Assembly (NCBI RefSeq): GCF_013623775.1
Contig: NZ_JABFAM010000006.1
Coordinates: 124,001-188,000, forward strand
Reading direction: 5' to 3'
Source of the DNA: Rufibacter sp. XAAS-G3-1
GTDB taxonomy: Bacteria; Bacteroidota; Bacteroidia; Cytophagales; Hymenobacteraceae
DNA length: 64,000 nucleotides
Part shown: positions 887 to 54,103 of the stretch, piece by piece
Numbering within the stretch: position 1 is the stretch's first letter
How the letters are laid out: each line of letters opens with the position of its first letter
Program-made: the position numbers and the translations under genes
The notes under the pieces: model-generated
Told to the model about the DNA's origin: nothing
Databases searched by the model: none
Seen by the model: only the letters and a program-made list of their open reading frames with translations

Positions 887-909
887 TATAAGACAGTTTT
901 AACTCAAAG

Positions 910-1107
910 CTGTTTACAGTTTTGCGCCTGTTTTCCTAAAAATACCCTGAAAACGGCGGTACAAGCAAATGCTCGCGGCTGTATGCAAATAACGGCCTCT
1001 TGTTTTTGGCCTGTTTTCATAAAAGTAATCTAAAAACAAGAGGCATAACCCGGACACTTGCCCCAGAGGATTGCTTTAAATGCCGGTTAATGAAAAACTC
1101 TAAACAT
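910..1107 (-). repeat. P3 element, about 198 bp with inverted ends
   Basis: The ends are CTGTTTACAGTTTT and AAAACTCTAAACAT. The interior matches, in opposite orientation, the elements at 22569-22766 and 34676-34872. Two P1-like palindromes lie inside, at about 919-955 and 999-1041. No coding potential is evident. Confidence 0.75.
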
Positions 1108-1188
1108 GTTCCTCAAAAAATCATGAATCAACCAAAGACTCTGCAAGATTCATTTCAAGCATTTACGATTGATCTAAAGTAGATTAGG

Positions 1189-1357
1189 AACCTGTTTAGA
1201 GCTCTTTATTTCACCTATTTCAATGACATGGCTGGCGCAAGCGTCTGTCTGCTGGTGCTCACGTTTTCAAGCTGCTTTTTGAAAAACAGCTTAGAAACAG
1301 AAGCCTCCTGGCCCACTAAGCTACCAGCGGGTGATGAAGTTAAACTCTAAACAGGTT
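1189..1357. repeat. P3-related element with perfect 13-bp inverted ends
   Basis: AACCTGTTTAGAG at 1189-1201 is mirrored by CTCTAAACAGGTT at 1345-1357. The 169-bp interior is largely different from the other P3 copies, but it contains a P1-like palindrome near 1261-1298. The shared termini suggest one family with variable cargo. Confidence 0.55.
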
Positions 1358-1379
1358 TATGACACCTCTCTTTGAAGAC

Positions 1380-22438: not shown

Positions 22439-22568
22439 GAGCCGTTGAAACGAAACCAGCCTCAAAACAGGGTCACCTAAGTAGCGGGACAGATTAAGCC
22501 TACTCCTTGTCTTCCTTCCAGGAAAACAAGGAGTAGGAGATGCTTGTTGTACTCCCATTCTCCTGAAT
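22439..22568. other. spacer before a P3 element
   Basis: It contains the imperfect inverted stretch CTCCTTGTCTTCC / GGAAAACAAGGAG at 22502-22532, which could act as a terminator for the AI-2E-type gene. Confidence 0.35.
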
Positions 22569-22766
22569 CTGTTTAGAGTTTTTCATGAACCGGCACCTAA
22601 AGCAATTCTTCTGGGGCAAGCGTCAACCAATGCCATCGCTTTTAGGCTACTTTTATGAAAACAGGCAGAAAAACAAGAGGCCGTTATTGGCATACTACCG
22701 CAAACATCCGTTTGTACCACCGTTTTCAGGGTGTTTTTAGGAAAACAGGCGCAAAACTCTAAACAG
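22569..22766 (+). repeat. P3 element, 198 bp with 14-bp inverted ends
   Basis: Ends CTGTTTAGAGTTTT and AAAACTCTAAACAG are perfectly complementary. The interior is nearly identical to 34676-34872 and, inverted, related to 910-1107. It contains two P1-type palindromes (about 22641-22679 and 22721-22758). Confidence 0.8.
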
Positions 22767-22921
22767 CTTCTCCTGTAAGATTGCTACCCCCAGGCATTAA
22801 CCTGACCTGGCTGGTGGTTCCCGGCGAGTCTGGAGTCTCGCGCCAGTACTTTCTAAAGCCTGCTTCCGTGAGGCTGCCCGCTCAAAGAGCCCGCCGCTCC
22901 TACGAGTGTCTACGCCAATGC

Positions 22922-22960
22922 CGTTTCAAGCCTGTTTCCCTTAAAATAGCCCCAAAACGC
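22922..22960. repeat. P1 palindrome
   Basis: CGTTTCAAGCCTGTTTCCC and AAAATAGCCCCAAAACGC form imperfect arms. Confidence 0.55.
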
Positions 22961-22996
22961 TCCGCCAGGGCTCCAAGACCTCACAGGTTTGGGGGC

Positions 22997-23034
22997 CGTT
23001 TTAAGCCTGTTTTCCGCAAAACAGGCTTAAAACG
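22997..23034. repeat. P1 palindrome, perfect arms
   Basis: CGTTTTAAGCCTGTTTT and AAAACAGGCTTAAAACG are exactly complementary over 17 bp around a 4-base loop. The inner triplet pair TAA/TTA differs from the CGG/CCG pair at 30128, yet pairing is kept. Confidence 0.8.
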
Positions 23035-23218
23035 CATTGGCAGGGCTCCCCTCTCCGCGGGAGAGGGGCTGGGGGTGAGGTCTCTCTTTCTGCGTAACGG
23101 CAGTAATCTAGTATCATCTATAGTTTAAAGCCATAAGGGCGAATGAAACGATCTTACCAGTTTTATGGTTCTAATAAGGTTAGCACTTACAAACCATCTT
23201 CCACCTTAACCAGAGCGC

Positions 23219-30127: not shown

Positions 30128-30169
30128 TTTGTTTTCGGCCTGTTTTCAAGAAAACAGGCCGAAAACAAA
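30128..30169. repeat. P1 palindrome, perfect 20-bp arms
   Basis: TTTGTTTTCGGCCTGTTTTC pairs exactly with its complement after a 2-base loop. It is the best-formed copy in the window and lies between divergent genes, so it is not simply a terminator. Confidence 0.9.
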
Positions 30170-33770: not shown

Positions 33771-34505
33771 TTAGTTTTGCAGCCATTTGTTGATGTAGGC
33801 ACTTCCTCCCAGACGGGTCATGTTCCGGGCAATATTGCGGCGGCGGCGCAGGGTGTAGCCAGAAGGTTTGGCCGCCGAATAGCGGATGGGGTTGGGAAGC
33901 ACCGCCGCTAACAGGGCTGCCTGGTTCTTGCTCACGTTTTTAGGGTCGGTTTTGAAATACTTTCTGCTGGCGGCATGCACCCCAAAGATATGGTCGCCCA
34001 TTTCAGCAATGTTCAGGTACACCTCCAGAATGCGTTCCTTGCCCCACAGCAGCTCAATGAGAAAGGTGAAGTACATCTCCACTCCTTTTCTCAGATAGCT
34101 TCGTCCGTGCCACAGGAACACGTTTTTGGCTACCTGTTGACTGATGGTGCTTCCGCCCACCGTCTTTTTGCTGGACATGTTCCGCTGGAAGGCTTGTTTG
34201 ATGGCTTTAAAGTCGAAACCGCTGTGGGTAAAGAATAACTGATCCTCGGCGGCAATCACGGCCAGCGGCAAGTTCACCGACATGTCTTCCATATCCACGA
34301 ACTGGTGCTGGATCTGGTCTACCTTCTGCGTTTTAGGGGAAGGTTCAGAACGTTTGGAGAGCATGTGCAGCGTCACGGGCGGGTCAATCCACTTGTAGAC
34401 AAGCACCCACAGAACCGTCACCAGGAACAGGGTAATGCAAAGCTTCAGGAAAAGCCATCGGGCATCTGCCCAGGTAAAGGGAACGGAAATCTGCTTTTTA
34501 GCCAT
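33771..34505 (-). CDS. mtgA: monofunctional biosynthetic peptidoglycan transglycosylase
   Basis: 244 residues with one N-terminal membrane anchor (FLKLCITLFLVTVLWVLVY). The GT51 domain shows AAEDQLFFTHSGFD with the catalytic Glu, STISQQVAKNVFLWHGRSYLRKG and ERILEVYLNIAEMGDHIFGVHAAS. It polymerises lipid II into glycan strands at the periplasmic face. There is no transpeptidase domain, hence monofunctional. It is first in a two-gene unit with the DUF4440-like lipoprotein. Confidence 0.94.
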   Translation of the reverse strand: MAKKQISVPFTWADARWLFLKLCITLFLVTVLWVLVYKWIDPPVTLHMLSKRSEPSPKTQKVDQIQHQFVDMEDMSVNLPLAVIAAEDQLFFTHSGFDFKAIKQAFQRNMSSKKTVGGSTISQQVAKNVFLWHGRSYLRKGVEMYFTFLIELLWGKERILEVYLNIAEMGDHIFGVHAASRKYFKTDPKNVSKNQAALLAAVLPNPIRYSAAKPSGYTLRRRRNIARNMTRLGGSAYINKWLQN

Positions 34506-34675
34506 AAACACCTAAGAGCTTGTTTACATTTGAGGTTTGCAGGCTCAACTAACCAGAGAAAGGTTCTGCGGAAGCGCTTTTTGAGCAGCGTAGCGGCGCT
34601 ACGGGGCGGCGCAACCGCGAACGCAGGTTCTTTTTATAGTCGTTTGCAGCGCAAAATAAAATTTAAACATGGAAC
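34506..34675. other. spacer upstream of mtgA
   Basis: A small hairpin GTAGCGGCGCTAC lies near 34590-34602 and there is a GC-rich tract. No gene or clear promoter is seen. Confidence 0.35.
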
Positions 34676-34872
34676 CTGTTTAGAGTTTTTCATGAACCGG
34701 CATTTAAAGCAATTCTTCTGGGGCAAGCGTCAAGCAGCGCCATCGTTTTTAGGCTACTTTTATGAAAACAGGCAGAAAACAAGAGGCGGTTATTTGCATA
34801 CTGCCGCAAGCATCTGCTTGTACCGCCGTTTTCAGGGTGTTTTTAGGAAAACAGGCGCAAAACTCTAAACAG
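34676..34872 (+). repeat. P3 element, 197 bp with 14-bp inverted ends
   Basis: Ends CTGTTTAGAGTTTT and AAAACTCTAAACAG. Nearly identical to 22569-22766. Differences between the copies are single-base changes spread along the length. Confidence 0.8.
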
Positions 34873-34994
34873 CTTCATGCTCTTAGCTGCCTGCACAAAG
34901 TATCGTCTGTCAAGACAAAAATACTGAAATAGTGGTAGCATGAAGAAAGCCTTCTTAAATTAGAAGCGTTTACGTACGTTTTTAAAAAACACGC
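34873..34994. other. leader of the Lon-N-domain gene
   Basis: AT-rich; nothing specific recognised. Confidence 0.3.
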
Positions 34995-35630
34995 ATGAGT
35001 AGATTTCTACCCCTTTTTCCGTTGAACATAGTGGTGTTTCCGGGGGAAAAGCTGAATCTCCATATTTTTGAACCCCGCTACCGGCAACTCATCATGGAGT
35101 GCCAGACCAATGGCACCACGTTTGGGATACCGGTGTACCTGGAGAATGGGCTGGGCGAGTATGGCACCGAAATCAAGATCCTGAGTCTGGAAAAGAAATA
35201 CCTGGGCGGCGAGATGGACATCAAAACCAAAGGTCTGGGGGTTTTCAAGATAAAGGAATTCCAGCGGCAGGTGCCGGGTAGGCTTTACTCAGGCGGTGAG
35301 GTGGAAGACCTGCCCCTCATCAAGGACGAAGACCCTTTCCAGCGAATCCAGATACTGGAATTGCTCAAGCAACTGTACAGCGCGTTGGGTATTCAAACGC
35401 TCATGCTCAACCTGCCAGATAATTTTCAGTCTTATGATGTGGCGCACCATCTGGGTTTCTCCACCGAACAGGAATATGAACTGTTGCAACAAACCAAGGA
35501 AAGTGACCGGCTGGAGATGATCTTAGCCCACTTGACCAGGATTTTACCGGTGGTTCTGGAAACCGAACGCCTGAAAGAACGGGTGAAACTCAACGGCCAC
35601 TTCAAACACCTTATTCCGCCCAACTTTTAA
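34995..35630 (+). CDS. Lon N-terminal (substrate-binding) domain protein
   Basis: 211 residues consisting of a stand-alone Lon substrate-binding (PUA-like) domain: FLPLFPLNIVVFPGEKLNLHIFEPRYRQL is the characteristic opening, followed by a helical C-terminal region (YDVAHHLGFSTEQEYELLQQ). There is no ATPase or protease domain. Such proteins are common but uncharacterised, and may recognise unfolded proteins. The metallophosphoesterase gene follows 47 bases later in the same direction. Confidence 0.88.
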   Translation: MSRFLPLFPLNIVVFPGEKLNLHIFEPRYRQLIMECQTNGTTFGIPVYLENGLGEYGTEIKILSLEKKYLGGEMDIKTKGLGVFKIKEFQRQVPGRLYSGGEVEDLPLIKDEDPFQRIQILELLKQLYSALGIQTLMLNLPDNFQSYDVAHHLGFSTEQEYELLQQTKESDRLEMILAHLTRILPVVLETERLKERVKLNGHFKHLIPPNF

Positions 35631-50652: not shown

Positions 50653-51021
50653 CAAGGTGGGATTGAGAGATTGAGAGATTGAAAGAGAGGTTGAGTGCAT
50701 TTGGATTTGGGAATATCTGTTTTAGGCGTGTTTTTCTGAAAACAGGCCTAAAACGAAGCATTTCCTCCCTTCTCTGTCACCCTGAAAGGAACTTGTGGGT
50801 ATGCTAGAAAGGCCTTTCCGTAAACGCTTCTACCGTTCGCTACATCCTTTCAGGAGGAAAAAAGGAGGATAGCCTTGCCGCCATTATTGGGGTTCTCACC
50901 AACAATCCAGATGCTGGGGCCTTTCCGCTTACTGGTGAAAACACGCGGCAAGGGTGAGAAAGGAAGGTGATACTCCTTTTCTGACCCATGCTTTTTTAAT
51001 TTTAGAAGAAAGATAAAACCC
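50653..51021. repeat. repeat-filled gap inside the metal transport locus
   Basis: It starts with a GATTGAGA tandem run (50662-50695), then a P1 palindrome (50719-50754) and a copy of the TGTCACCCTGAAAG dispersed repeat (50776-50862). A GGTGATACTCC stretch precedes the next gene. It separates the binding-lipoprotein gene from the ATPase gene, so the latter may have its own promoter. Confidence 0.6.
50719..50754. repeat. P1 palindrome
   Basis: GTTTTAGGCGTGTTTTTC and GAAAACAGGCCTAAAAC form arms with one mismatch; the TAGG/CCTA subtype. Confidence 0.7.
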
Positions 51022-54067: not shown

Positions 54068-54103
54068 GTTTTGAGCCTGTTTTGCGAAAAACGGGCTTAA
54101 AAC
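54068..54103. repeat. P1 palindrome
   Basis: GTTTTGAGCCTGTTTTGC and AAAAACGGGCTTAAAAC form arms with few mismatches. Confidence 0.65.

Follow-up and report, generated by a model that had tools for sequence, protein, structure and literature searches.

Four repeats of about 200 bp with inverted ends lie in the window, the stretch of 64,000 nucleotides of Rufibacter sp. XAAS-G3-1 that was analysed here, and they raise the question of what kind of element they represent. The initial annotation had offered two readings, a MITE-like family or a structured RNA cassette. The repeats are almost certainly IS5-family MITEs. The first of the two readings is borne out by paired ends found genome-wide, by a full-length element with the same ends that encodes a transposase and by an empty site for one window copy together with its host repeat. 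To these the sequence adds target duplications, copies at unlinked places, an open frame and putative DDE residues in the matching IS, nesting with a second repeat family and the finding of no full-length copy in 15 congeners. Together with their partner IS the repeats form a well-supported new family of a known kind of mobile DNA.

Repeat copies in the window

All four annotated repeats are present (Table 1), with ends that lie 4 bp further out on each side in three of them and 1 bp further out in the copy at 1188-1358. Comparison of the flanks placed the true ends of the family at GAA[C/G]CTGTTTAGAGTTTT...AAAACTCTAAACAG[C/G]TTC, up to 4 bp outside the ends first given. With the true ends, target duplications that had been described as not obvious appear as CTC, ATG and the 4-bp TCCT, although none is seen at 1188-1358. 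The copy that first drew attention (22565-22770, hereafter the reference copy) is the 4-bp case, which accounts for its duplication having been overlooked at first reading. The copy reported earlier as 1189-1357 does have 13 perfect terminal bases, which are common to the family, and a different interior, with one palindrome of the type called P1 and not two.

Between the inverted ends of the four window copies, 15-18 of the first 22 bases match. A scan of the window for the 10-bp end, one mismatch being allowed, gave 12 occurrences, where shuffled sequence gave 3.42 on average (maximum 9; none of 100 shuffles reached 12). The longest ATG frame of the four copies is 38-58 aa. Adjoining the reference copy, the intergenic stretch 22892-23083 is composed of other dispersed repeats, of which congeners contain many copies.

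Table 1. Repeat elements of the window and their parts
Feature	Position	Strand	Remarks
Reference MITE copy, 206 bp	22565-22770	+	True ends GAAT...CTTC; 4-bp direct repeat TCCT at 22561-22564 / 22771-22774
P1a, first P1-type quasi-palindrome of the reference copy	22638-22674	+	37 bp, one base longer than in most copies
P1b, second P1-type quasi-palindrome of the reference copy	22722-22757	+	Adjoins the right terminal inverted repeat
MITE copy, 205 bp	34672-34876	+	3-bp duplication ATG at 34669-34671 / 34877-34879; inserted in the right end of a family B repeat
Family B repeat interrupted by the MITE	34516-34882	+	About 160 bp excluding the insert; ends GAGCTTGTTTACATTT...AAATTTAAACATGCTC; flanks TAA/TTA
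MITE copy, 206 bp, inverted	906-1111	-	3-bp duplication CTC at 903-905 / 1112-1114; one mismatch per 10-bp end
Diverged MITE copy, 171 bp, same terminal inverted repeats	1188-1358	+	Single central P1 at 1263-1298; without target duplication

Family size, ends and target sites

The search for paired inverted ends elsewhere in the genome, which the initial annotation had proposed, gave 37 exact pairs 120-180 bp apart, against none for a reversed control pattern. When ends were counted singly and one mismatch was allowed, the genome gave 191 (95 + 96) and the control again none. A similarity search with the reference copy returned at least 42 matches, the copy itself included (best 40 of 356 candidates scored).

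The elements used below were drawn from the listed part of the 191 ends and from loci found in other searches, and are not a random sample. Of 87 pairs 85 were retained, one of them being the IS itself, and the two that were dropped joined an end of family B to an end of the MITEs (family A); ten ends in the fetched loci were left without a partner. All of the paired elements have inverted ends and 60 of the 85 measure 196-206 bp. Exact 3-bp duplications flank 51 of the 85, and 4-bp duplications flank three more, among them the reference copy; with shuffled flanks the mean was 3.61 and the maximum 12. Neither an exact 3-bp nor an exact 4-bp duplication was found for the other 31, of which 17 differ at one base of the three.

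A hand-curated set leads to a similar picture. It holds 51 elements from 69 candidate pairs, 18 having been judged by hand to be mis-pairings, duplicates or poor ends, and an exact 3-bp duplication is present in 34 of the 51 (shuffled flanks: mean 2.33, maximum 8). Other symmetric offsets from 0 to 8 gave at most 3 of 51 in the same set. The asymmetric offsets 3/5 and 5/3, both of which overlap the duplication by two bases, gave three-base matches in 13 of 51. The target is A/T-rich and roughly symmetric, with TTT preceding the duplicated triplet by 5-7 bases and AAA following it at the same distance: at the 34 sites with exact duplication, T is found in 21, 23 and 25 at 7, 6 and 5 bases before the triplet, and A in 21, 20 and 20 at 5, 6 and 7 bases after it. 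A single element out of 60 overlaps an open reading frame of at least 150 aa by more than 60 bp, whereas elements placed at random in these loci did so in 66% of cases.

Of the 61 elements with a length of 196-206 bp, 59 were entered in alignment A1 and two were skipped for a poor anchor. The median pairwise identity of these 59 copies is 78%, one pair is identical and several reach 98.5-99.5%, which suggests an old family with some recent movement. The near-identical copies that were compared by eye have different flanks.

Members of other lengths and interiors were also seen. A form of 120-122 bp with one P1 (L065:1354-1474, L060:83-204, L081, L082 and L083) looks as if one half had been lost by recombination between the half-repeats, or as if it were the ancestral single-unit form. 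Elements with differing interiors (1188-1358, L048, L050, L005:1282, L087 and L035) were considered as separate captures of P1. By eye, however, several of them share a stretch before P1, GGSGCAAGCGTCYG...CGTTTT, and for this reason most elements with odd interiors are now treated as old members of one family.

The partner IS and its transposase

Whole-genome PF01609 and transposase searches list no transposase in the window, as had been remarked before, but an element with the same ends and a transposase is present elsewhere in the genome. Three PF01609 matches were found, and the one at C17:42834-43322 falls between two MITE-type ends. The full-length element for which the initial annotation had suggested looking is thus an IS of 921 bp at C17:42449-43369, whose ends read GAAGCTGTTTAGAGTTTT / AAAACTCTAAACAGGTTC and which is flanked by ATC at either end; it has the 18-bp ends of the MITE family and a 3-bp duplication of its own.

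The open frame of this IS encodes a transposase of 291 aa that scores 115 bits against NF033580, the NCBI IS5-family model (cut-off 110). It is also above the cut-offs of PF13340, PF13359 and PF01609, and a match to PF00884 lies below the cut-off. When the protein was aligned with six relatives, D118 and D197 were invariant, and E246 is present in the copy of this genome; by IS5 motifs, these three residues are the presumed DDE triad. The closest named relative, the transposase of Rufibacter ruber (L100), is 82% identical and has G in place of the presumed catalytic E, which suggests that the R. ruber copy is probably inactive.

Related transposases occur at 23 loci, all from Bacteroidota according to the record titles. 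At nine of 20 foreign loci GAAG-type ends with exact 3-bp repeats were found (one side varies in two), in a ranking of pairs that favoured such repeats. Within the genus, strong relatives (E <1e-50) are present in G001, G002 and G009 and weaker ones in G005, G010 and G012. Genome G040, of the same order, has 42 transposase matches, several of them near-identical in score and with a single in-frame TAA.

One full-length copy of the partner IS is present in the draft of 73 contigs, and the other matches to its transposase in this genome are short pieces; contig breaks in the draft may conceal further recent copies. The end scan detected no MITE-type ends at the two other PF01609 loci (L058 and L059; wider L063 and L064). 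Two decayed IS copies do have MITE ends, namely L089:767-1175 (409 bp, internally deleted, 74% identical over 375 bp) and L066:1303-1779, which contains a nested B copy. These older remnants indicate that related ISs were present here before.

The MITE was also considered as an internally deleted form of the resident IS. A blastn comparison with word size 7 returned the ends only or weak pieces (E >=1.9), and since the MITE has nothing significant in common with the IS apart from the ends, it is not a simple internal deletion of that IS.

Very probably it was the transposase of the resident IS, and not another of the same specificity, that moved the MITEs. It is possible, though unlikely, that another IS5-family transposase specific for the same ends, which may since have been lost, amplified them and that the resident IS arrived later. 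The unrelated interior of the MITEs would agree with such a history, as would the single full-length IS copy beside the older remnants and the existence of a transposase as close as that of R. ruber. Nevertheless, it is the resident IS that carries the 18-bp ends of the family and its own 3-bp duplication, whereas the two other PF01609 loci showed no such ends in the end scan and the remaining matches to its transposase in the genome are short pieces.

Each MITE is a DNA cassette that has no coding function, lies mostly between genes and ends in the terminal inverted repeats GAA[C/G]CTGTTTAGAGTTTT. If the resident IS is indeed the partner, its transposase would recognise these repeats and cut the MITE out or copy it, and insertion into an A/T-rich target would give rise to a duplication of 3 bp, sometimes of 4. 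To judge from the sequences, the MITEs may still be able to move. Four unexplained repeats have become a defined mobile family with ends, a target rule, a partner transposase and one empty site, so that annotators can mask the copies, and mobilisation in trans becomes testable with a single protein of 291 aa.

Comparison with described elements

ISCaa2, ISCaa3 and ISCaa6 of Amoebophilus asiaticus, which belong to the ISL2 group of the IS5 family, are 914-991 bp long, with a transposase of 275 aa and inverted repeats of 19-23 bp, according to the available part of the source (PMC3196728). They are comparable to the partner IS, with its 921 bp, 291 aa and GAAGCTGTTTAGAG ends, the likeness being drawn at the level of the IS5 family. 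In contrast to the elements described here, they are listed with no direct repeats, and the same part of that source describes no MITE. MITECca01 of Cardinium cOegib is derived from an IS982-family element, with which it shares sequence beside the left end (PMC9769881), whereas the present family is of the IS5 type with an unrelated interior. BrickBuilt of Porphyromonas gingivalis is likewise a MITE of the Bacteroidota with an internal repeat, and is described as always intergenic. Its internal repeat, however, is a tandem minisatellite of 23 nt (PMC4596501), whereas here it is the dispersed 36-bp palindrome P1, found genus-wide.

Nesting with family B and the empty site

The second repeat, family B, is about 160 bp long, with ends GAGC[T/A]TGTTTAAATTT and 3-bp repeats of the TAA/TTA type. 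Exact 3-bp repeats were found in 12 of 35 candidate B pairs, many of the 35 being mis-paired, and ten of the 12 are TAA or TTA. Family B is matched in several congeners at 71-86% identity. By eye, seven or more A copies are situated within a B copy or at its end (L004, L021, L045, L047, L053, L056 and L084), and at least six B copies lie inside A-type elements or their ends (L010, L013, L062, L066, L077 and L088). Further family B loci are L019 and L027.

The window copy at 34672-34876 sits in the last bases of its B repeat (AAACATG / element / ATGCTC). When positions 33800-35630 were used as a query, both flanking genes were found in all 15 congeners. The gap between the aligned parts is 6-41 bp in 11 of the 15, compared with about 407 bp here. 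Longer gaps of 59, 123, 146 and 290 bp occur in G001, G013, G012 and G008, respectively, where the gene alignments end earlier. At locus L179 the junction reads ...CAACCTAA / GCTGCC..., and in the window it reads ...CACCTAA / B with A inside / TTAGCTGCC.... Wherever the junction can be read in a congener, the composite 34516-34882 is absent. The empty junction and the nesting together indicate two insertions on the lineage leading to this species, first that of B and later that of A into B.

The comparison of empty sites in relatives, suggested earlier as a check, was in this way successful for the copy at 34672-34876 jointly with its host B repeat, but not for the reference copy. There the flanking genes are conserved and the intergenic stretch has diverged between species, and an empty site is not demonstrable.

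Distribution among relatives

Among the 59 genomes searched, with the best <=13 candidates per genome scored, the full reference element was found in its own genome only. Under the same scoring 14 of the 15 congeners gave short pieces only, mostly over P1, the longest noticed being 66 bp. The remaining congener, G012, gave none, and G023, of another genus, gave one piece of 28 bp. Exact paired ends are present in three of the 16 genomes of the genus, with 37 in this genome, six in G001 and one in G003. The two G001 copies that were read measure about 161 bp; they agree with the family in their ends, differ from it in their interior and carry P1 at the centre. One of them has an exact TTA duplication (L156) and the other matches at two bases of three (L155). 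A 24-base MITE-specific pattern had no match in a contig collection which may leave out the present genome. In the open-licence PMC literature on Rufibacter repeats or ISs and on MITEs of Bacteroidota or of the IS5 family, none of the titles or abstract openings listed describes this family.

The P1 palindromes

P1 is a palindrome of 36 bp with 16-bp arms, the sequence of which varies while the pairing is often kept. With at most three mismatches it has 19 matches in the window (e.g. 919-954, 22998-23033, 30131-30166, 50719-50754 and 54068-54103), against a shuffled mean of 0.00. When up to two mismatches are allowed, all 16 genomes of the genus contain the pattern GTTTTNNGSCTGTTTTNNNNAAAACAGSCNNAAAAC, with 15-1340 copies each and 678 in the present one; none of 43 other genomes has it. 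Among named genomes the counts are 1340 in Rufibacter ruber and 149 in R. psychrotolerans, equal to those of G001 and G002, respectively, and 0 in five other named relatives. A guessed 20-bp palindrome, 'P2', had one weak match in the window and was dropped.

Each of the 59 aligned MITEs contains two imperfect P1 copies, and each of eight atypical elements, chosen by hand, contains one. By a strict rule P1 is present in 58 of 84 elements of at most 500 bp; among control windows, which overlap by half and take in coding sequence, 61 of 1995 contain it. Six of 17 elements that were inspected (L024, L062, L072, L077, L079 and L089) are without P1 by this rule.

It is very improbable that the repeats are a structured RNA cassette or a conserved regulatory element with its function in the internal hairpins. 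The copies are almost all intergenic, as such an element could be, and P1b exceeds shuffled alignments on four of five measures, which related sequences can do without structure: eight pairs show two-sided changes, a number attained by 2 of 500 shuffles (mean 5.1), 75.9% of the cells are paired compared with 74.5% in shuffles (0 of 500), and the covariation score is 0.075 compared with 0.062 (1 of 500). However, about a quarter of the P1b cells are unpaired, and P1a pairs no better than shuffled columns (76.5 vs 76.7%). RNAalifold gave -0.03 kcal/mol and 2 pairs for the 59 copies, and no Rfam family reached the gathering threshold in five loci; on these results and the P1a pairing, the RNA cassette of the initial annotation was given up for the element as a whole. 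In addition, the DNA fold of the reference copy has a z-score of -1.94, with 10 of 200 shuffles folding equally well. The composite is moreover absent at the single readable orthologous site, and 3-bp duplications are present, as in the MITE reading.

The number of Watson-Crick pairs in P1b is two-peaked, with 48 copies at 8-13, 11 copies at 15-16 and none at 14; P1a is without two peaks. Only copies with at most 13 pairs were considered when a neighbour was chosen for each near-perfect palindrome. L051 and its neighbour L057 differ by 4.2% outside P1b, and the right arm of L051 has six changes, all six of them copied from the left arm. L022, compared with L023 (4.8%), has three changes, which are confined to the left arm and are each copied from the right, and L029 shows the same three against L023 (12.2%). 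The other near-perfect palindromes have more distant neighbours and changes that are only partly templated.

Some P1b arms appear to have been rewritten from the opposite arm, which would fit quasipalindrome correction by template switching. This process, known from microbes, acts on imperfect palindromes and converts one arm, in a single step, into the complement of the opposite one (PMC8794818); in the present case it is read from diverged MITE copies and not from experiment. Templated changes of an arm give the same sign as compensatory ones, so that the excess at P1b need not mean RNA. The two close-neighbour copies with arm changes copied from the other arm (6/6 and 3/3) can serve as a warning that covariation in short dispersed palindromes need not imply an RNA function.

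A more speculative proposal, which we regard as distinctly unlikely, is that P1 is a working part of the MITEs and no chance cargo. The IS5-ended MITEs of the genus would then keep the central 36-bp palindrome while the remaining interior diverges, template switching would keep the arms complementary, and the MITEs would spread and renew P1. If this were true, P1 would be a genus-wide palindrome partly dispersed by transposons, and the 'compensatory' changes would be mutational and not selected. The more interesting question would be the reason why these MITEs keep a genus-specific central palindrome.

It is scarcely credible that a Y1/RAYT transposase spread the repeats together with P1, in the manner of REP-type palindromes, and that they are not DDE-type MITEs. 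Each standard copy does have two P1-type palindromes, and a P1-like sequence (about L153:1019-1054, by eye) lies some 250 bp from the one PF01797 gene of the genome. However, another inverted pair lies closer to that gene on its two sides (by eye), and P1 is present by hundreds in the genus so that one copy near the gene says little. The reading is also contradicted by the MITE duplications, since Y1 transposases are not known to leave terminal inverted repeats with 3-bp duplications. The single Y1/RAYT-type gene (PF01797, about L153:1180-1930) has its own inverted repeats, TGCGTAGAGC... and GCCAATCTCCAGATTGGC, and is a separate REP-like candidate.
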